Origin: a virus
Reading direction: 5' to 3' (one strand)
Virus record (IMG/VR): IMGVR_UViG_3300017967_000133
Location: 1-29,754 of that record
DNA length: 29,754 nucleotides
The notes beneath the pieces were generated by a model. The model had not been told where the DNA came from and did not search any database. It saw nothing but the letters and a program-made list of their open reading frames with translations. This document shows, piece by piece, positions 3,778-29,077 of this stretch. Within the stretch, counting starts at the first letter, position 1. Each line of letters starts with the position of its first letter. The translations under genes were made by a program, and so were the position numbers.

Positions 3778-6700
3778 TTATACCTGTAGAGCGTATGCTC
3801 TGAGTTTTCTTACCTTAGGTACATTAACAGTTGTGCTATTCAAAGGAACAATCTTGATGGCATAATACTTGAATCCTTGATATGTTGTGGTCTGAGTAGT
3901 AACTGTTCCTGCTGTAGCTGAGGTACCGCCGCCTCCTGAGAGTGTAACAGTAATCGTGCCACCATCATATCCCCTACCTGCATCCAGTATATTGATAGCT
4001 GTAACTGCTGATCCTGCTATTGTAGCAGTTGCTCTTGCTCCAAAACCATCACCTGAGTGTGTGATGGTTACAGTTGGTGCTGAAGTATATCCTGATCCGC
4101 CTGATGAAACTGCAATAGAAGCTATGCCTGTAACATCATATTCCAATACACCCTCAGTATTTAGACCAAAACTATTGGATCCTTTTGAGGGCAACCCGTA
4201 TCGGTATTCGCCATAGCTAGTTGTTGGAGAATCCGGTGTTAAATTTTTATCCATTTTTCTCCAAATAATATCATCACTGAATTTAGCTAAATCATCATCT
4301 ACGTTTTGTACTTTATAATAAACTTCAACATCGCCGGTAGAAGGAATATAATTATCCAAAATTACTATTAGATCTTCAGCATCCTGAGTATCTTCTAATC
4401 TTACTTTCCTAGAAATATACCTAGAGGATGCTGTGCCTCCAGTACGTACAGCTTCTCCGGAAGAATCATTGTTTATCTCGTTTTTATATGCGTTGAACAT
4501 CAAAGATTCCATATCAAGCATAGGACTTAAATGTTCATAAGGCGTCCTTAAAGTAAGTTCAAACGTAGCTGTTTTACTGCCATTATAGTTGGCCTGTTCA
4601 TTTGAATAACTGTAGATTGTTTTTTCTGTTACAAGATCGTTTAGCTCACCTATAGCCATAGGAGTCATTGTAGTATTTGCTGAAGCTGCTCCTGTATTTG
4701 TTAGAGCAAACTTAGGTGTAATTGTTCCTAGGTTACCAAAGTTATCAAAAGGACACTTAAATGCGTAAGAACTAACTACCCTATCGTAAATGTTATTTAC
4801 GTTTGCAGTCTTAGTTCCGTTACCTACTAACACAGAACGTATGGTCCTTTCTGTACCATCTACTGTATTAGAACCTGTAGAAACAAAACGTCCTTTTAAT
4901 ACAGTAATAGTAGAGGTTTCATCATACATCGCGGCATGATAAGAAACACGACCCAGGTTAAGTTCTGCCGTCACGGTAGCCGCAGAAGAAGGCGTACCAC
5001 CAGACAAGGTAACAGTTAAATTAGAGTTACCATCATATCCTGCTCCAGGATTAGTTAGAGTTATATCAGTAACAACACCTGCTGTTAATGAAGCGGTTGC
5101 TGTTGCCCCGGTTCCTCTACCTGTGCTATCAGTAATAGTAACTGTAGGAATTGATCCGTATCCGGCTCCTCCACTGTTACCCACAGTGAAAGTAAATCCG
5201 TGTACTTTATCGCCAACTGCAAACTTAGTGCTTGAATCACTAAAGCTATCGTAGTTAGTCCAGTCATGGTTTTTAGTTTTTAACTTGAGTTTAAAATTAG
5301 TATTTGTTGAGAATGTACAACGGTTAATTCTAAACATCATATCTTCTTTTTGTCTTGCTGACCAAGTTCTGTTGTTAGCAGATGTAAACAGTATTCCACT
5401 GTGTGCTTGCTTAGATATTACTGTATCTGAACCATGAATCTTTTTACCTAGTTCTGCAATCCAAACGGTATAGTTAGGATCGTCTGAGTCTGGAATAGGA
5501 ACAACACAATACTCTGTGTTGTTTTCTAAGTAAACAGGTGTTGGGAATGCAAAATGAGTACCCCTAGGAGTATATGTACCGTCTCCGTTGTCTATTGAAG
5601 CTGCACAGTCCCTTCTTTCCTTTCTAGATTTCGCTAGAACAATATCGCCCGGATAACCGTTAACCATATTTCTAAGTTCTAGTGTGATACCTTTATTATC
5701 TTCAGGTTTAGAAACAGTGTGGAAGAACAAATCTACAGAAGAAACATACATTCCATTATCGTATCCTTCAACCATAAATGATTGTGCCATTGGATCCCAA
5801 CCACCACACAACGCGCCATACATATCAAGATATGCTCTTGAACCTAGGCCTGCCATATCATATTCAAATTGAAAATTAGTTAAATCATAATCAAATTCAA
5901 CCGCACTAGCTGCAGGAGTGACAGTAGGAGTTGAAGGGACAGTAGTAGTGTAGTTATTAGATGGTGGTACCTCTACCGGAATATCATCATAGAAAGTTTC
6001 AAATGTAGCAAAACCTTCAGTGAGATCCTCTCCAAAGCCAGATCCAGTATAATGATTTACTCCATATGTGAGGAACGCATCTATAATAGAATCAACCGGA
6101 GCCGCAGAAGTAGGATCTTGAAACCCGATAAATGAATTTGCGCCACCATATTCAGTAGGTATAACAGTAACCGTAGTAGGCGGTACCGGAGTTGTCGCAG
6201 TTGTAGGAGTACTGGAAGACTCTGCCGGTCTATCCTGAGGATCATATGATATATCAGAAGTCCTTGTAAACACCGTACCTTCTACTATTTTAGGATCTAA
6301 AGGTGTTGACACCGCTTGTGCGGGCTCTGAGCCTGTTCTTGTTCTTGGTTGAGGAGGATTGATAACAGTATAGTGTTTGGCATTAGTAATAATAGTGCCG
6401 TCACCGCCTGTAAAAGTATTTGTAGCTCTAGATACAGTGTTTACTACACCACCTGATCGGCGGCCGCCGATAAGGCCTTTAGAAGCTACTATTACATCAT
6501 GTTTACCAGGAGGAAGTTCTTTATCTCCAATAGTAAATGTACCAGAAGCTCTACCATTTGCATTTGAAGTAAATGTACCTTTGCTAATACCTCCAATATA
6601 AATTGTATGTTCTAAATTAGAGCATAGTCCGCCAGCAGACCACTGTATTTCTTGTGATCTAATATATCCGTAATTTTTTCTACTTACCTCTTTTTCACCA

Positions 6701-9700
6701 TCATAAACACGATTTGCATTAGGTAAAGAACCAATATATGAGTATTGTGTTTCACGCCTCTTAGGTTGTATTTCATTTCTAGCATATTCAGTATAAGGTT
6801 GTACTTCAGTCTCATACCAGGTACCTATAGTCAGTAGATAAGGATCTTGATAAGACCATCTGTCTGCTCTGTGAAATGATAATTCGCCTTCATTCCATAT
6901 CTCTTCGGTATATTCTTTCCTGCCGAGTATATTTTCTCCGGGTGTACCTGTGTCGGCGGTTTGAATATAGGACAATCCATCATCTACTATTCTGTCATAA
7001 TCAAGGTGCCACGCATCATCACTGTATTCAAAGTTAGCTTCTACACCTGTTATGACATTTTCAACGTCATCAGTTGATAGCCTTGTGTCTGTCCATGCAG
7101 GATCTTTCTTTGGTCTGATTTGTAGGTCTCCATATACAGGCTGACCAACACCACAAACTGGAGGAGGAGTATCTTTTACACAGGCTTGTGTTATAGGATC
7201 CCATGTATAACCTGTGTTACACGCTATAGGAACACAGGCATTACCGGCTGCATTTAAAGTATAACCTGAAGCACATACAAGTCCAACATTAGTATTGTTT
7301 AGTGTAAATGTTGAGCTTGCTGAACCAGTAGCATTTCCATCACTATCAGTAGCATCAAGTGTGAGTTTTAAAGTTTCATTTTCAGTAATGCCTGTTTCAG
7401 TAGCAAATGTAAATGAAACGACTGCTTGAGAACCGCTGTCTATTGTAGCAGTTCCTGTTAGTGAACCAGAAGCTAAGTCTCCAGATAGAAGTGTATAACC
7501 TGTTGTACAAGAAAGAGTCCAGCCAACTGTCACACCTGAACCTACAGCACTGCCCTGTATAGTAAGTGATATAGATTCGCCTTCATCTACTGCACCTTTA
7601 TTTGTAATAGAATATTCAACTACACGTTCTGCTCCATTATCAGGATTAACTGGTTCAGGAATAACCGGTCGAAGAACACAAGCGTTAGCTACAGGGTCCC
7701 AAATATAACCAGATTGACAAGTAGGTTGAACAACAACTTCCTCATCATATAGAAGTTCCGTTACAATAGCTTCCCATTTACTAGCTTTTAAATTTTCCGC
7801 ATACATAATTTCTGCGTAAGGAACGTGTGCTATAGCTCCAGTCTGACCACACTCGTCAGATGCTCCCGAAAAATTCGGCAAAAGTGAAATAAATTCGTCA
7901 GAGAAATAAGGACGCATAACACCAATAGATTTATGTAAAGAACATTTGTAATCAGGATCATTTACTGCTGCTGTAGTAAATCCATTAAATGCGTCTACTA
8001 ACAATCCGTTTTTAAATCTATCTACACCTGATTCATCTAAGAATTTCTCATCTTTAGATGCTTGTTCTAATATAGACAGAGAAGTGTAATACTCAAGATT
8101 TTCAATTCTTTTTTCTAGGCCACCAATTTGTGACATAGTATACTTGGGATTATTTACCTTTCTAACTTTATTAGCCAAATCTAATCTTGAATAGTATTTA
8201 CCCGATGCCGCACTCAAAGAAGGATATGGTTTAGCCACAAGTGTAGCCAATGTCATATCTTTACTAGTTTTAGGCATAGGAATGCTTGGCTTTGTAGAAG
8301 CAGGATTAGATACAAGCTCAATAGAACCTGTAGGAGTGACTATAATTCTATGCCCCTGACCCAAATAGTATTCAAGATCTGTTGTAAATTCTTGTACAGG
8401 GACAGGCATAGTTAGACCATTAGAAGGTCTTGTGATAGTTATTGCACTGCTAGGATTCTGAGTTGCAGAACCTAATGTAGCCGTAGGAGTTGCTGTATTA
8501 GTTGCATAAGGTCTAAAATCTAATTCATCTCTAAGGTCTACTGTTCTGCCTTTGCTATTAACATATAAAGGCACCTCTTGTAGTTTCATTGTGTTTGCTG
8601 ATATTGCGGCTGCATATGAATCTATACAAGAAAAAGTAGGACCAGTAACAGTTCTACTAAAATAGTCAAACTTAACAAGTAAGTAAGGTCTGGCAGTAAA
8701 GTCTACAGTGGCCGAAGGTTTCTTAAATATCTTAGCGAGTCCATAGTAGTTATCTCGCTGACCGTTATCGAATCTAAACTGACTCGTTACGTCTATTCCA
8801 TCGGAAGCTGCTGAAAATGCTGAAGAATGAGCCCTGATTGATGTTATTCTAAGTACATCAGCTACACCTAAATTAAATTCTATTTCGGAAGTAGAATAAG
8901 TATCAGTACCGTCAGCAAGAAGTGTCACATATTGATCTGTATTCAGAGTTTTTGAAATTGGCGTAGTATCTGCTACTTGAACATTGGCATAAATTTTAAC
9001 ATCTAGGCCAGAAGATGCAACAGCTGTTGCTCCTAGGTCTATAGTAATTTCTGTATCACTAACTACGGTTACACTTCTGCCTGTAGCAGTGAGATCTAAC
9101 ATTTCTCCCAATGAAAGTGTGTCAGTAGGAGTAGTTGTTGTAAAAGTATCTTCAGCTACTACCTGAATATTAGCAAGAGCTGTAGTATCGCTCAATACAC
9201 CGGTCGAGTATGGGAAAGTTTCATTACCGCTTACGGTTATGGATACTTCACCATTAGCTGCTACTGTAGCACTAAATTCTTTTGTATACTGAAAATCGTA
9301 GTCGTATGTTCCGCCAGGTGCAATAGTCTTTGTATTTCTAGCCGGTAGTGGGAAAAATACTGAATTGAATGCCTTTTCTTTCAACACTGCACCGTAGTTT
9401 GCGGTACCTGCGTACTGCCAAGTGATACCACCATCTGTTGCAGTACCAGAAGTATGTGTAGGTCCTGAACCACTTGAAGCAGAAGTACCTGCTACTGTCG
9501 CAGTATATAGATAATCACCATTGTATGCAATTTGATTTGGTGCAAAGTATGTACTAGTTGCCCATGCTTTAGCATTAGCATCAATATTATTTAATACAAC
9601 GTCTGCAAAACCATCAGCATTTGTATCATTATAATACAAACTTTTTACATTTTCAAAGTTATCAGAGGTCATTTTAACATCATACAAATAAAGTCTGTAC

Positions 9701-11088
9701 TGAGCAGATGCTGAACCTACTGTCCCTGATTCGCGTACAAAGTGACGAATCTTAGCTGTACCTATAGCATTACCTGATGCTGAAGTTCCTGAAAAAGTTG
9801 CAGAAGTTACTGCTGTCTGTGCAGTATCATAAAGGGTAACTTCAGCGCTTCCGTCTACATCCCATGAACCACAAGTTTCATCTACAAGAATGTAGTTACC
9901 ATAGTTTGTAGTTATTGTAGAATCTTCTTTTGTTTCCGTATCAGTAGGTTTGTCTATTATCAATAATTTACGATTAGTCAGTCGTAAAGGATGTCCGCCT
10001 ACTTCACAATAACCGGGAGAAATTTCTGCTACTAATTTTGTAGCATCGCCACCATTAGCAGAAGTAAACACACCACCATTAACACCGTCGTTAAGGTGTT
10101 CTTTTAACTGAACAGTCAGACCATGATCTACAAAGTTACCGTATGTTTCATAGGCCCTTTCATTCATTATATCGCCTAGACGATTTAGTCCGCTGGTCCT
10201 AATATCATTTCTGACTAATCTACCATACTCCCACTGTCCGTATTCAAAAAATAGTTCGGGCAAAGTAACGCCGGTAACTGCATATGATTTTAGTTGTGCA
10301 GAAATATTATATCGGTCTGCGCCGGGTGCATTGAAGTTATAAGAGCCTGATGCTGGATCTAAAAGTGTCTCATCATCAGTGTATTCTTTTACTGCCTCTG
10401 TTAGTTCAAAACCTATTTTACGAACAACAGAGTTGCTAAAAGGATGTACGTAAGTAGACAATGTATCCGTAAGAATAAATTGTTCTTTTGCATATATTAC
10501 ACCGGGAGATAATTGTATTTTGGTTGTAGTACCATAATAGTTATCTGCATGAGTTACAGGGCTTGCAGCCAAATTACTAGTAACAAACTCGGTATTTAAG
10601 TGAGAGCCCCCTGAGATTACTTTTAATCTTTCAGCTCCAGAGAAATGTTCGTTACCTTCGCCACGGCCGTTAAAATCTAAATATGCAAGATAAAAGGCCT
10701 TTAGTGCCGGCCTTCCTGATACAGATCCTTGTACAGTGCCTATGATTTTAGCTTTGATTCCTGTAGTTTGACCTTCAACTATAGCACCTCTAAACTTCTC
10801 CATTTGTGCATTGGTCAATGCTGTTGTTGTAGTAACACCGTTAGGATAATACTCATCATTAATTTTAATATAAGGAACTGCAATAATAGATTCTTCACAT
10901 CCACTAATCACTGCGCCTTCTTTGAGTGTAAAACTTCCAAGATTAGAAATTTGATTTTGAAGAACTGTTTGTAGCTGGGTCAGTTCTCTTGCTTGTACAG
11001 CAACACCAGGTTTAAATAAAATCCTGTTATAATTTTTTGTTGCATCAAAGTCGTCAAAATACGGAGAAGTATTTAAATTGAGTGCCAT
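3778..11088 (-). CDS. Giant virion structural protein, DUF4815-type N-terminus
   Basis: 2436 residues. The N-terminus (NTSPYFDDFDATKNYNRILF, then KPGVAVQARELTQLQTVLQ) matches the DUF4815 opening of large virion proteins in marine T4-like phages; these sit in the baseplate region, probably as a wedge-peripheral or fibre component. Residues about 1-1100 hold the DUF4815-like region. At about 1121-1138 there is a CxSGYxWDPxxxACV motif, then a Calx-beta/Ig-like stretch (ITENETLKLTLDATDSDG), then two more Cys motifs at about 1271-1313. Near residue 1770 'GGWDPMAQSFMV' begins another conserved beta-rich block. Two Gly-rich GSGY modules lie near 1960-2045 and 2320-2400. No T4 gp9, gp10 or gp11 homologue is seen here, so this protein may replace them (inference). 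ATG 11088 has AGGA-TTAGGAA upstream; it starts 9 nt after gp8 ends. Confidence 0.8.
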   Translation of the reverse strand: MALNLNTSPYFDDFDATKNYNRILFKPGVAVQARELTQLQTVLQNQISNLGSFTLKEGAVISGCEESIIAVPYIKINDEYYPNGVTTTTALTNAQMEKFRGAIVEGQTTGIKAKIIGTVQGSVSGRPALKAFYLAYLDFNGRGEGNEHFSGAERLKVISGGSHLNTEFVTSNLAASPVTHADNYYGTTTKIQLSPGVIYAKEQFILTDTLSTYVHPFSNSVVRKIGFELTEAVKEYTDDETLLDPASGSYNFNAPGADRYNISAQLKSYAVTGVTLPELFFEYGQWEYGRLVRNDIRTSGLNRLGDIMNERAYETYGNFVDHGLTVQLKEHLNDGVNGGVFTSANGGDATKLVAEISPGYCEVGGHPLRLTNRKLLIIDKPTDTETKEDSTITTNYGNYILVDETCGSWDVDGSAEVTLYDTAQTAVTSATFSGTSASGNAIGTAKIRHFVRESGTVGSASAQYRLYLYDVKMTSDNFENVKSLYYNDTNADGFADVVLNNIDANAKAWATSTYFAPNQIAYNGDYLYTATVAGTSASSGSGPTHTSGTATDGGITWQYAGTANYGAVLKEKAFNSVFFPLPARNTKTIAPGGTYDYDFQYTKEFSATVAANGEVSITVSGNETFPYSTGVLSDTTALANIQVVAEDTFTTTTPTDTLSLGEMLDLTATGRSVTVVSDTEITIDLGATAVASSGLDVKIYANVQVADTTPISKTLNTDQYVTLLADGTDTYSTSEIEFNLGVADVLRITSIRAHSSAFSAASDGIDVTSQFRFDNGQRDNYYGLAKIFKKPSATVDFTARPYLLVKFDYFSRTVTGPTFSCIDSYAAAISANTMKLQEVPLYVNSKGRTVDLRDELDFRPYATNTATPTATLGSATQNPSSAITITRPSNGLTMPVPVQEFTTDLEYYLGQGHRIIVTPTGSIELVSNPASTKPSIPMPKTSKDMTLATLVAKPYPSLSAASGKYYSRLDLANKVRKVNNPKYTMSQIGGLEKRIENLEYYTSLSILEQASKDEKFLDESGVDRFKNGLLVDAFNGFTTAAVNDPDYKCSLHKSIGVMRPYFSDEFISLLPNFSGASDECGQTGAIAHVPYAEIMYAENLKASKWEAIVTELLYDEEVVVQPTCQSGYIWDPVANACVLRPVIPEPVNPDNGAERVVEYSITNKGAVDEGESISLTIQGSAVGSGVTVGWTLSCTTGYTLLSGDLASGSLTGTATIDSGSQAVVSFTFATETGITENETLKLTLDATDSDGNATGSASSTFTLNNTNVGLVCASGYTLNAAGNACVPIACNTGYTWDPITQACVKDTPPPVCGVGQPVYGDLQIRPKKDPAWTDTRLSTDDVENVITGVEANFEYSDDAWHLDYDRIVDDGLSYIQTADTGTPGENILGRKEYTEEIWNEGELSFHRADRWSYQDPYLLTIGTWYETEVQPYTEYARNEIQPKRRETQYSYIGSLPNANRVYDGEKEVSRKNYGYIRSQEIQWSAGGLCSNLEHTIYIGGISKGTFTSNANGRASGTFTIGDKELPPGKHDVIVASKGLIGGRRSGGVVNTVSRATNTFTGGDGTIITNAKHYTVINPPQPRTRTGSEPAQAVSTPLDPKIVEGTVFTRTSDISYDPQDRPAESSSTPTTATTPVPPTTVTVIPTEYGGANSFIGFQDPTSAAPVDSIIDAFLTYGVNHYTGSGFGEDLTEGFATFETFYDDIPVEVPPSNNYTTTVPSTPTVTPAASAVEFDYDLTNFQFEYDMAGLGSRAYLDMYGALCGGWDPMAQSFMVEGYDNGMYVSSVDLFFHTVSKPEDNKGITLELRNMVNGYPGDIVLAKSRKERRDCAASIDNGDGTYTPRGTHFAFPTPVYLENNTEYCVVPIPDSDDPNYTVWIAELGKKIHGSDTVISKQAHSGILFTSANNRTWSARQKEDMMFRINRCTFSTNTNFKLKLKTKNHDWTNYDSFSDSSTKFAVGDKVHGFTFTVGNSGGAGYGSIPTVTITDSTGRGTGATATASLTAGVVTDITLTNPGAGYDGNSNLTVTLSGGTPSSAATVTAELNLGRVSYHAAMYDETSTITVLKGRFVSTGSNTVDGTERTIRSVLVGNGTKTANVNNIYDRVVSSYAFKCPFDNFGNLGTITPKFALTNTGAASANTTMTPMAIGELNDLVTEKTIYSYSNEQANYNGSKTATFELTLRTPYEHLSPMLDMESLMFNAYKNEINNDSSGEAVRTGGTASSRYISRKVRLEDTQDAEDLIVILDNYIPSTGDVEVYYKVQNVDDDLAKFSDDIIWRKMDKNLTPDSPTTSYGEYRYGLPSKGSNSFGLNTEGVLEYDVTGIASIAVSSGGSGYTSAPTVTITHSGDGFGARATATIAGSAVTAINILDAGRGYDGGTITVTLSGGGGTSATAGTVTTQTTTYQGFKYYAIKIVPLNSTTVNVPKVRKLRAYALQV
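3895..4131 (-). repeat. Gly-rich GSGYTS module (C-terminus of the giant protein)
   Basis: Encodes a two-step repeat: 'IAVSSGGSGYTSAPTVTI', a Gly/Ala linker with 'ARATATIAG', then 'INILDAGRGYDGGTITVTLS' and GGGG. The same pattern recurs in gp8 and the gp7-like protein. Confidence 0.75.
4960..5205 (-). repeat. Gly-rich GSGYTS module (internal, giant protein)
   Basis: Encodes 'TVGNSGGAGYGSIPTVTI', 'GATATASLTAG' and 'ITLTNPGAGYDGNSNLTVTL'. It has the same alternation of G-x-GY, PTVTI strand and ATATA linker as the C-terminal module. Confidence 0.75.
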
Positions 11089-26206: not shown

Positions 26207-26896
26207 ATGGCGTTACCAAAGATAGATGTGCCAAAGTTTGATTTGACTTTGCCTGGGACAAAAGAAACATATGAGTTTAGACCGTTTCTAGTAAAAGAAA
26301 ATAATATTTTGACACAAGCTGCGGCCTCTGAAGATATTTTGACGCAGCTAAAAGGAGTTGTACAAATTGTAGAAAATTGTTGTATGGGCAATCTTAAAGT
26401 TGAAAGTTTGCCTTTGTATCAAATACAGTGGTTATTTCTACAGTTAAAAGCAAGATCAGTTGGAGAAGAAGTAGATTTTATTTTAACTTGTGGTGAATGT
26501 GAAGCTAAGATAAATTATCAAATGAATTTAAATGATTATGAAATTAAAGGAGATAATAGCACTACCAAAAAAGTTATGATAAATGAAAAATCTGGCCTTG
26601 TTTTTAGGATGCCGGATGCACTAACTCAAGTATCGGCAGCAGACTTAACAGATTTAGAAGTTATTATGAGAGGAATAGATCACATCTTTACTGATGAAGA
26701 AATAATCCATATTGATGATATTGAAAAAGAGGAGCTAGTAACTTTTATTGAACAGCTTCCGTTACAGGTTATAAAAGATGCAAATGAATTTTACAGCAAT
26801 GTGCCAGTTTTAATGCACATCAAAGAATTTAATTGCAGTAAATGTAACACAGAAAATAGGGTACTGATAAACAGCATAGAACATTTTTTCGCTTAA
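26207..26896 (+). CDS. 26: gp26-like baseplate hub assembly protein with Zn-ribbon
   Basis: 229 residues; T4 gp26 is 208. The opening 'FDLTLPGTKETYEFRPFLVK' and the whole layout match the T4 base plate protein family (gp26). Two CxxC pairs (C95-G-E-C98 and C210-S-K-C213) are placed to bind one zinc. gp26 is needed for hub assembly and is thought to act as an assembly factor. ATG 26207 has AGGAGA 6 nt upstream, the best ribosome site of this operon. Two codons before its stop lies a T TTT TTC slippery heptamer (26884-26890). A -1 shift would join its first 228 residues to the 60-residue gp51-like frame, as in lambda G/GT chaperones. Confidence 0.85.
   Translation: MALPKIDVPKFDLTLPGTKETYEFRPFLVKENNILTQAAASEDILTQLKGVVQIVENCCMGNLKVESLPLYQIQWLFLQLKARSVGEEVDFILTCGECEAKINYQMNLNDYEIKGDNSTTKKVMINEKSGLVFRMPDALTQVSAADLTDLEVIMRGIDHIFTDEEIIHIDDIEKEELVTFIEQLPLQVIKDANEFYSNVPVLMHIKEFNCSKCNTENRVLINSIEHFFA
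26884..26890 (+). promoter_or_regulatory. Putative -1 programmed ribosomal frameshift site (T TTT TTC)
   Basis: In the gp26 frame the codons are CAT TTT TTC GCT TAA, which gives a canonical X XXY YYZ heptamer (T TTT TTC). After a -1 slip, reading continues CGC TTA ACT without interruption for 60 codons to TAA at 27070-27072. Ten nt downstream, TTCTC (26901-26905) can pair with GAGAA (26917-26921), with extra AA/TT pairing, as a weak stimulatory hairpin. Confidence 0.6.
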
Positions 26897-27072
26897 CTCT
26901 TTCTCAAGATTCGTTGGAGAATTATTATAAAACGAATTTTCTATTGATGCAGGAACACCATTGGAGTTTAACAGAATTAGAAAATATGGTGCCTTGGGAA
27001 AGAGAAGTTTATGTTAGTATGCTCATGTCACATTTAAAGAAAAAGGCTGAAAAGAAAAAGAGTAACCAATAA
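26884..27072 (+). CDS. 51: gp51-like frame, probably expressed as a -1 frameshift fusion with gp26
   Basis: Open in the -1 frame relative to gp26. From the slip site it encodes 'FFRLTLSQDSLENYYKTNFL', 'LMQEHHWSLTELENMVPWER' and 'EVYVSMLMSHLKKKAEKKK', ending SNQ. The 'W-LTELENM-PWERE-Y' core is typical of the small gp51 proteins (hub assembly catalyst) of marine T4-like phages, and of second-frame tail chaperones generally. The first in-frame ATG (26947) would remove the conserved-looking 'LTLSQDSLENYYKTNFLL' part. A TTG at 26914 is the only earlier alternative, and neither has a Shine-Dalgarno. A 288-residue gp26-gp51 fusion is therefore the simplest reading; separate initiation at TTG or ATG is the alternative. 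Its stop overlaps the next ATG (TAATG). Confidence 0.65.
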   Translation, partial: FFRLTLSQDSLENYYKTNFLLMQEHHWSLTELENMVPWEREVYVSMLMSHLKKKAEKKKSNQ

Positions 27073-29039
27073 TGGATAACATTTTAGATTTAAGTAGCTC
27101 AATACGTTCTACTTTTGCCGGTAAACAAACAGCAAGCAGAGGCAGGGTACCTAGTCTCGCTAGTGATCTTGCAAGTTCTATATCTGAAAATACTGAAGCG
27201 TTAAAAGAATTATTAGCTAACAATTCTGAGGCTAGAAAAGAGTTATCTAATTTGGTTGATATGATACAAGAAAGCCAAGCACTAACAGGCTCTGCTTTAA
27301 AAGAAGCATTAGCAGGCATTGAAGAACAAATGGAAGTTTTAAGAAAAGCAGCAGGTAAAGATGGTAAAAAAATAGATCGTCTGTTAGGATTAAGTAAAGG
27401 CATTGCCAAAGCGACAGGTGTTAGGCAAGCTACCGCTGTTCCTGTTGCTGATTCAACTTCATCTGCTGTAGCAGATGCTACATATACAACAGGTCAAGAC
27501 ACAGACGGTAAAGGTAAAGATTCTAAAACACTAGAAGAAATTTTAAACACCTTAAAAGGAACCGGCGGTGCAGGTGGTGGGACCGGATTGATTGGCACCA
27601 TAATTGGCGGACTTGCAATGGCAATGGCAGGCGGACTTACAATATCAAAAATACTAGAAGAATTAGGATTTACAAAAGAAAGTTTTTACAACGACATTAA
27701 AAATATGCTTGGCATAGGCACTGATCCTAATGGCAATACAAGCTTAATCGGACAACCAGGATTTACATACAATCAAAACAATGGTCTAGGTCCGACTACA
27801 GTAACAAGACCTAATGGTTCACAAGTGGATCTAGAAGAAAATATTTTAGACAACACACGAGCTGATGAAATATTAGTTGCACAGGCACTAGATGGTACTC
27901 GCTCTAGACAAGTAGGAAGAGGAGTTTTAGCGACGGCAAATACAGCAGGAAGGGTAATAACCCCTGCTGTGGATGCCGCCGGAAGAATGATGAATAACGT
28001 GACAACAAATTCAAGAGGTCAGCAGATTTATAGAACAAGCCGCCCTGGCCAGGTCGCGGGCCGATATGCTTCTAGGGAAGCGAGAGAAGCACTATCTGAA
28101 AAGATCGGAAGAACCGTTGTTGCAAAAGCAGCCAGAATGGCACCAAAAGTTATTGCTAAATCTCTTCCTTTTGCAGGAGCAATCATTGGTTTGGGTGAAG
28201 GAGCCTGGCGAATGATAAACGGAGATGCTGTTGGAGCTGCTATGTCAGCTGCAAGTGGCGCTTTAGGTCCTATTACTGCAATAACAGTAGGAGCTGCTGA
28301 TATTGCAAGAGAAGTTTACAAAGAAGTGTATAGGGATCCGGAAACCGGTGAAGAGATACGACCAGAAAATGATCCATTGGTCAGGGAGCGATTGCCTGCT
28401 ATTGTTCAATTGGCAACAGCTGAATTAAAAAAACTAGTAATGGGTGAGCTTGAGTTACATAATGCAAAATCTAGTGGTTTATATGACAAAGATATTATTG
28501 GTGATTCGGAAATAGATTATGAAAAATTAGCACAAACTAATAATGCTGACCAATTGAAAGCTATTATCAATGATGATGATTTATCCGGTGAAGATATGGC
28601 AGCAGTAAGAGCAAGGTTAGCTGAAATAGAGAATATGGTACCTGAACCTGCAGCAATCAATGAAAATTCAGCTGCACTGTTAGATCCTTCACTAAGTGAA
28701 CCTTTAATGCAAGCAGCCGAAACAATGACTCCTGAAGCAAGAATGGAACTTGCCAGAGTAAATCCGGAATTGAGACCTATGATGGAAGAAAGGGGTCTCA
28801 TAGAACCTGCTACTTCGACATACGGAATGACAGGTGATGCTATTTATGCTATGACTCCGGGAAATATGAACGGAGGAACACTCGTTCAAAACATAGATCA
28901 AAGCACTAATACTACTGTTAACGGCGGCAATCAGGGCGGCACAGGTATTATTCCTTTAAGAAGCAGGCCTGAGAATAATGTATTTGAAATGTATCAATTA
29001 GGCAGAATTGCTCCTGCACTTGGGAGTGGCGCTAAATAA
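27072..29039 (+). CDS. Probable tape measure protein (gp29-like)
   Basis: 655 residues; T4 gp29 is 590. The N-terminal 110 residues are helical and coiled-coil-like (ALKELLANNSEARKELSNLV and so on). A Gly/Ala hydrophobic segment follows at about 170-192 (GLIGTIIGGLAMAMAGG), and a second one at about 365-420 (SLPFAGAIIGLGEG; ALGPITAITVGAA). The C-terminus is Asn/Gly-rich (NIDQSTNTTVNGGNQ) and ends in a conserved-looking 'LGRIAPALGSGAK'. Ejected tape measures carry such transmembrane-like segments. At 0.15 nm per residue the length would specify a tail of about 98 nm, plausible for a T4-like phage. It directly follows the gp26-gp51 pair with TAATG overlap, the position of a tape measure after G/GT. 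Sequence similarity to T4 gp29 was not recognisable by eye. Confidence 0.6.
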   Translation: MDNILDLSSSIRSTFAGKQTASRGRVPSLASDLASSISENTEALKELLANNSEARKELSNLVDMIQESQALTGSALKEALAGIEEQMEVLRKAAGKDGKKIDRLLGLSKGIAKATGVRQATAVPVADSTSSAVADATYTTGQDTDGKGKDSKTLEEILNTLKGTGGAGGGTGLIGTIIGGLAMAMAGGLTISKILEELGFTKESFYNDIKNMLGIGTDPNGNTSLIGQPGFTYNQNNGLGPTTVTRPNGSQVDLEENILDNTRADEILVAQALDGTRSRQVGRGVLATANTAGRVITPAVDAAGRMMNNVTTNSRGQQIYRTSRPGQVAGRYASREAREALSEKIGRTVVAKAARMAPKVIAKSLPFAGAIIGLGEGAWRMINGDAVGAAMSAASGALGPITAITVGAADIAREVYKEVYRDPETGEEIRPENDPLVRERLPAIVQLATAELKKLVMGELELHNAKSSGLYDKDIIGDSEIDYEKLAQTNNADQLKAIINDDDLSGEDMAAVRARLAEIENMVPEPAAINENSAALLDPSLSEPLMQAAETMTPEARMELARVNPELRPMMEERGLIEPATSTYGMTGDAIYAMTPGNMNGGTLVQNIDQSTNTTVNGGNQGGTGIIPLRSRPENNVFEMYQLGRIAPALGSGAK

Positions 29040-29061
29040 AAAAGGGGGCCTAAGCCCCCTT
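29038..29061 (-). terminator. Strong intrinsic terminator of gene 32
   Basis: An 8-bp GC-rich stem (AAGGGGGC at 29042-29049, CTAA loop, GCCCCCTT at 29054-29061) is followed on the minus strand by six U (29043-29038). It ends the gp32 transcript. The plus-strand side has only TTCTC after the stem, so termination of the tape-measure transcript would be weaker. The U-tract lies inside the last codons and stop of the plus-strand gene. Confidence 0.9.
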
Positions 29062-29077
29062 CTCGTCTGACTAGTTA

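Follow-up and report, generated by a model that had tools for sequence, protein, structure and literature searches.

The stretch of DNA analysed here, hereafter the window, is a 29.8-kb record from an uncultured marine T4-like phage (IMGVR_UViG_3300017967_000133), in which the neighbouring genes match the T4-like head closure, DNA end protector, tail tube, tail tube cap (gp48), gp53 and gp6 families. All the features of the junction are on the plus strand. The gene of gp26 (positions 26207-26896; 229 amino acids) has an AGGAG Shine-Dalgarno sequence upstream and would encode the short form of a chaperone (TAC-N, or 'G'). Its end carries the slippery heptamer T TTT TTC (26884-26890), a -1 tandem slip site with T at 26884, TTT at 26885-26887 and TTC at 26888-26890, followed by GCT and, one sense codon past the heptamer, by the zero-frame stop TAA (26894-26896). 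After a slip, the -1 frame (26890-27072), corresponding to gp51 and designated TAC-C ('T'), starts with CGC at 26890 and comprises 60 codons and the stop TAA at 27070-27072. This stop overlaps the ATG of the next gene (27072-27074) in the motif TAATG, from which an ORF of 655 amino acids starts (27072-29039). The first-pass annotation of this DNA had described the heptamer in slip phase at the end of gp26 and a -1 frame open for 60 codons up to TAATG, and both are read at these positions. In a scan of the window's genes, about 9,365 codons in all, TTTTTTN is met in slip phase a single time, and T TTT TTC at 26884 is the sole slippery heptamer adjoining a zero-frame stop. The same junction is carried by two other contigs (L001 and L002) and therefore does not come from a base-calling error; a sequencing error as the source of the junction was ruled out by this recurrence and by the conservation described below. 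Elsewhere in the window, a second in-phase slippery heptamer, TTTAAAC, is located inside the tape-measure-like gene (27542-27548), where the -1 frame stays open for 52 codons, and an ORF of 2436 amino acids is found on the minus strand (3778-11088), inside the baseplate gene region.

The protein gp26 is a full-length member of the family PF12322 (positions 2-219, E = 1.8e-46, 159 bits for a cut-off of 24.5), and the Pfam search gave no match to a chaperone family beyond this one. It also matches positions 5-232 of phrog_150. The product of the -1 frame matches phrog_634 ('baseplate hub assembly catalyst', gp51; positions 56-116, E = 1.6e-26) and positions 232-281 of phrog_150. As the match of gp26 to phrog_150 ends at position 232, where that of the -1 product begins, one profile spans both parts. 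The AlphaFold2 model of gp26 has a mean pLDDT of 93.4 and, with Foldseek, matches the predicted structures of T4-like hub chaperones from a wide set of phages, baseplate hub chaperones in their annotation; in the PDB, no fold match was obtained at E<=0.001 and no solved tail assembly chaperone was found. TAC-C is a small, conserved helical domain, for which Pfam gave scattered weak matches without pattern and whose fold search returned phage proteins that do not clearly pass an E value of 0.001. No fold relation to a chaperone of solved structure came out of these searches. The known G/GT pairs are very diverse among themselves, so the missing fold or sequence match bears on homology and not on the two-product mode. 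Because no fold homology to lambda gpG was found, the proposed tape measure chaperone function is based on gene position and on the logic of two products. Two Cys-x-x-Cys pairs, CGEC and CSKC, are present in gp26 of the window (26489-26500 and 26834-26845) and might bind zinc; similar pairs occur in several relatives (KVP40-like phages, Aeh1, T4 gp26) and are absent from many cyanophages.

The ORF at 27072-29039 is probably the tape measure gene, the product of which would be the client of the chaperone. It lies directly after TAC-C, its length is near that of T4 gp29 (590 amino acids) and one hydrophobic segment is present in each of the two proteins. The first-pass annotation had called this gene tape-measure-like, a description that stands for its position, length and character and that no family model confirms: the search against family profiles gave no convincing match and none to a tape measure profile. 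Right after this gene, an inverted repeat, GGGGGCCTAAGCCCCC, followed by TTCT (29040-29065) looks like an intrinsic terminator, and a converging gene lies opposite.

The conservation of the slip site was analysed in a set of 98 loci composed of the window, 17 phage loci and 80 contig loci. The contig loci were found by a scan with patterns of the TAC-C domain that do not contain the slip site; a scan from gp26 was impossible, its divergent alignment having no sufficiently conserved stretch. Of 100 single-copy loci, 98 have TTTTTT[C/T/A] in one and the same phase, the run starting at the third position of a codon of the gp26 frame. Both the slip site and its phase are conserved in relatives, together with the open -1 frame, so that the sequence checks proposed in the first-pass annotation turned out in its favor; the locus counts cover related sequences and so are not independent events, and the agreement across families is nearly complete. 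The gp26-gp51 loci of the Kyanoviridae and of the KVP40-like, Aeh1-like and Emdodecavirus phages share the slip site, the phase and TAC-C with the window. From a set of 94 loci, 89 representatives were defined that differ by more than 10% of their DNA (under 90% nucleotide identity). In all of them the codon before the T run ends in T (log10 P of -16.9, calculated from codon usage) and TTT is invariably the first Phe codon (log10 P of -12.6), both values being overstated since relatives are treated as independent; TTT represents only 72% of the Phe codons of these genes. The second codon is TTA in 11 loci, which replaces Phe by Leu in the zero frame and keeps the six Ts, and nine of these 11 loci still encode Arg in the -1 frame by means of AGR. 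In these loci, conservation concerns the run of Ts and what the -1 frame encodes, and not the amino acid of the zero frame. The distance from the heptamer to the zero-frame stop is exactly one sense codon in 76 of the 89 representatives. At the junctions L011, L042, L054, L064, L074, L090 and L097, about 8-9 extra sense codons (e.g. VLPSLTTA) precede this stop, and the short form of these relatives gains a small tail.

The two exceptions to the canonical heptamer are Vibrio phage K476 and Ackermannviridae phage Kuja (junctions L014, 2200-2405, and L019, 2220-2435), which represent two distant lineages and both have CTT TTT; they were left out of the counts on the sets of 98 and 94 loci. The sequence CTTTTT allows good re-pairing for one tRNA only. 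The junction of K476 has TAATG, where translation could restart. It is possible that Kuja and K476 use a different mode of slip or restart, akin to the GTTTTT motif of the Vandenendeviridae. In the Vandenendeviridae and Andersonviridae, a tail chaperone gene likewise has a conserved -1 frameshift on a T run (PMC12846349); the comparison concerns the slip motif, and the five-T motif GTTTTT is nearer to CTTTTT than to the site of the window.

Candidate stimulatory signals were detected on both sides of the slip site. A Shine-Dalgarno-like motif is present 11-15 nucleotides upstream of the heptamer in 64 of the 98 loci, against a mean of 3 and a maximum of 15 for in-phase upstream controls. A conserved Glu-Gly accounts for part of this motif. 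The Glu is encoded by GAG in 26 of 42 cases, compared to a background of 28% (P = 5e-6); the excess is also seen against the 40% observed for Glu before Gly elsewhere (P = 0.003). Downstream, the folding of the RNA in the 98 loci gives mean z values of -1.19 and -1.35 for windows of 50 nucleotides from +10 and +20, with a peak just after the slip site and values near zero in most windows farther away. Strong stems with spacers of 4-7 nucleotides and differing sequences are found in the cyanophages P-SSM2, P-RSM6, S-PM2 and S-CAM3 and are lineage-specific; other relatives have no strong stem after the slip site. Unlike many cyanophages, which display the Shine-Dalgarno-like motif and strong downstream stems, the window has neither at its slip site: the region 26897-26960, where many relatives have a possible stimulatory stem, shows weak structure only (z values of -0.9 and -1.5; best adjacent hairpin of -2.0 kcal/mol). 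The slip may be less efficient in the window, or may rely on the heptamer alone.

The -1 signal of Escherichia coli dnaX consists of a Shine-Dalgarno-like motif about 10-14 nucleotides upstream, a slippery heptamer and a downstream stem. This architecture is that of many relatives of the window, with the difference that dnaX uses an A-run and yields a shorter frameshift product, whereas a T-run and a longer product are observed here. The homopolymer at the junction, which reaches seven or more Ts in some relatives, could also suggest that the RNA polymerase and not the ribosome slips, generating frame-shifted mRNAs. However, most runs have six Ts, a length that is short for known bacterial transcriptional slippage, and the run always begins at the third codon position, as tandem slippage of tRNAs requires. 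Moreover, a positioned Shine-Dalgarno-like motif and a downstream structure are stimulators of ribosomal frameshifting. Slippage of the polymerase is consequently considered highly improbable.

The first-pass annotation had noted that the second frame has neither a Shine-Dalgarno sequence nor an ATG ahead of its conserved part. This is confirmed in the window, where the first ATG of the -1 frame is located 63 nucleotides after the start of the heptamer, within the conserved region, and it extends to relatives: a Shine-Dalgarno core precedes the first ATG of the -1 frame in one of 94 loci, whereas such a core stands before gp26 in 67 of 91 cases and before the downstream ORF in 38 of 89. In 44 of the 94 loci, no ATG, GTG or TTG is present in the -1 frame before +57. 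When pairs of these start-less loci are compared over the stretch before +57, the differences at codon positions 1, 2 and 3 of the -1 frame amount to 2174, 1632 and 4246, respectively. This excess at third positions indicates that the stretch between the slip site and the first start evolves as a translated frame. Judged from these sequences, TAC-C has no translation start of its own. It is usually otherwise represented in GenBank, where gp51 is annotated as a separate small gene, often from an internal ATG (e.g. in S-CAM3, S-RSM4 and Mosig), which would suppose re-initiation after the stop of gp26, at a TTG or at such an ATG; the window has a TTG at +30, without a Shine-Dalgarno site. The scarcity of Shine-Dalgarno cores and of usable starts is at odds with this explanation. 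In addition, coding sequence is conserved upstream of such starts, the annotated starts would remove the conserved N-terminal third of the domain, and in T4 the domain sits within one long protein. A start of its own for gp51 was rejected, and a separate gene is very unlikely. The shape of the sequence and the weak stimulators of the window could also be those of a decaying, unexpressed remnant of a formerly fused gene, but TAC-C is intact and strongly conserved in all loci, with variation in excess at third positions. A pseudogene was rejected on account of this conservation across loci, and we consider a remnant hardly conceivable.

The proteins gp26 and gp51 of T4 are listed as hub assembly chaperones, and gp51 is absent from the virion (PMC3004832). 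Both belong to the same protein family as the product of the window, with matches to phrog_150 at positions 14-235 for T4 gp26, which ends in GLKEFFELL, and 13-280 for T4 gp51, C domain included; the two proteins also align with each other (E = 2e-6). On these alignments, they are paralogues, gp26 being equivalent to the short product and gp51 to the long product, in frame (N plus C domains). The first-pass annotation had assigned gp26 to G and gp51 to the T domain. This assignment fits the marine phages; it does not apply to T4, where gp51 is the whole long form and gp26 its short paralogue, and the marine 'gp51' is the counterpart of no more than the C-terminal portion of that protein. In a search for copy number in 18 phage genomes, T4, a Krischvirus and RB43 were found to have two copies, the one short and the other long and in frame; they differ in this respect from the window with its single frameshifted gene. 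The 15 other genomes, searched whole, have one copy, which is followed in each by a -1 frame resembling TAC-C; the heptamer is canonical in 13 of them, the others being Kuja and K476 with CTTTTT. The extension is therefore fused in frame in 3/3 two-copy genomes and kept in the -1 frame in 15/15 single-copy genomes. No remnant of the slip site is found in T4 gene 26, which reads GAG TTC TTT GAG, the heptamer being gone. In an unrooted tree, the six proteins of the two-copy phages all fall to the same side of a branch (97/96), which agrees with a single duplication. As other Straboviridae still frameshift, we infer that frameshifting is older than the duplication, the tree itself being unrooted. 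Among these Straboviridae, the TAC-C frame is unannotated in the Aeromonas phages Aeh1 and ZPAH1, the Vibrio phage vB_VmeM-32 and the Cronobacter phage S13, where it lies in the -1 frame after T TTT TTC/T (L100, 2250-2425; L101, 2235-2457; L102, 2205-2377; L103, 2220-2392).

Xu, Hendrix and Duda reportedly described in 2004 a conserved frameshift of tail assembly chaperones of the lambda gpG/gpGT type. The locus of the window resembles lambda in having a short form and a predicted -1-frameshifted long form, a slip site at the end of the first frame, a C domain without its own start and a position directly before the (probable) tape measure gene. It differs by its slip site, T TTT TTC, lambda having its own, and no relation of sequence or fold was detected. 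Since the slip site is conserved, the -1 frame is coding, and the extension is in the -1 frame in 15 single-copy genomes and fused in three two-copy genomes, it is highly probable that gp26 and the following -1 frame constitute one gene, encoding a T4-type tail assembly chaperone with a short and a long form produced by -1 frameshifting (G/GT-type). Most ribosomes would stop at the end of gp26 and release the short form (TAC-N). A minority would slip back by one base, with tRNA-Phe on TTT and TTC of T TTT TTC, and read 60 more codons, giving a long form (TAC-NC) that ends in the small helical domain TAC-C (gp51). The roles of lambda gpG and gpGT suggest, by analogy, that TAC-N would coat the protein of the tape measure and that TAC-NC would bring in the subunits of the tail tube. 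Synthesis of the fusion, the ratio in which it is made and its action on the tape measure are inferred.

The first-pass annotation had proposed to bring T4-like tails into the G/GT scheme. The reading is sound, and very probably not new. Vladimirov, Gautam and Davidson (2022, Virology 566:9-15), as cited in PMC10885494 and PMC12846349, named these genes T4-like tail assembly chaperones, in a paper whose title stresses a mechanism other than frameshifting. According to the account of it in PMC10885494, some T4-like phages have a short and a long gene in place of frameshifting, and it is the reference given in PMC12846349 for frameshift signals on T runs in T4-like phages. From these citing papers, the idea of frameshifting for T4-like chaperones is very probably already in the literature. 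The present analysis adds the scale, the lack of an own start for TAC-C, the candidate stimulators, the clean division of the genomes by copy number, one or two, and four phages in which the frame had gone unannotated.

In the T4 superfamily, recoding may well have been replaced by duplication, a scenario that we favor with reserve. The frameshifting single-copy gene would be ancestral and kept in marine phages, KVP40-like, Aeh1-like and Emdodecavirus phages and others, whereas the line of T4, RB49-like and RB43-like phages would have duplicated it into a short 26 and an in-frame long 51 and lost the slip site. The frameshifting lineages would set the ratio of short to long form through lineage-specific signals (internal Shine-Dalgarno-like motif, T6 heptamer, downstream stem), of which the lineage of the window would keep the heptamer alone. 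In most of the public genomes looked at, 'gp51' is either given as a tiny gene of its own, with a start that is doubtful, or missed (Aeh1, vB_VmeM-32, ZPAH1 and Cronobacter phage S13). These annotations are corrected when gp26-gp51 is read as a single gene with a frameshift. That some T4-like phages would obtain the same chaperone pair through recoding, and T4 through duplication of the gene, offers a natural comparison, and this contrast makes the question of why the ratio of short to long form matters directly testable in a laboratory phage.
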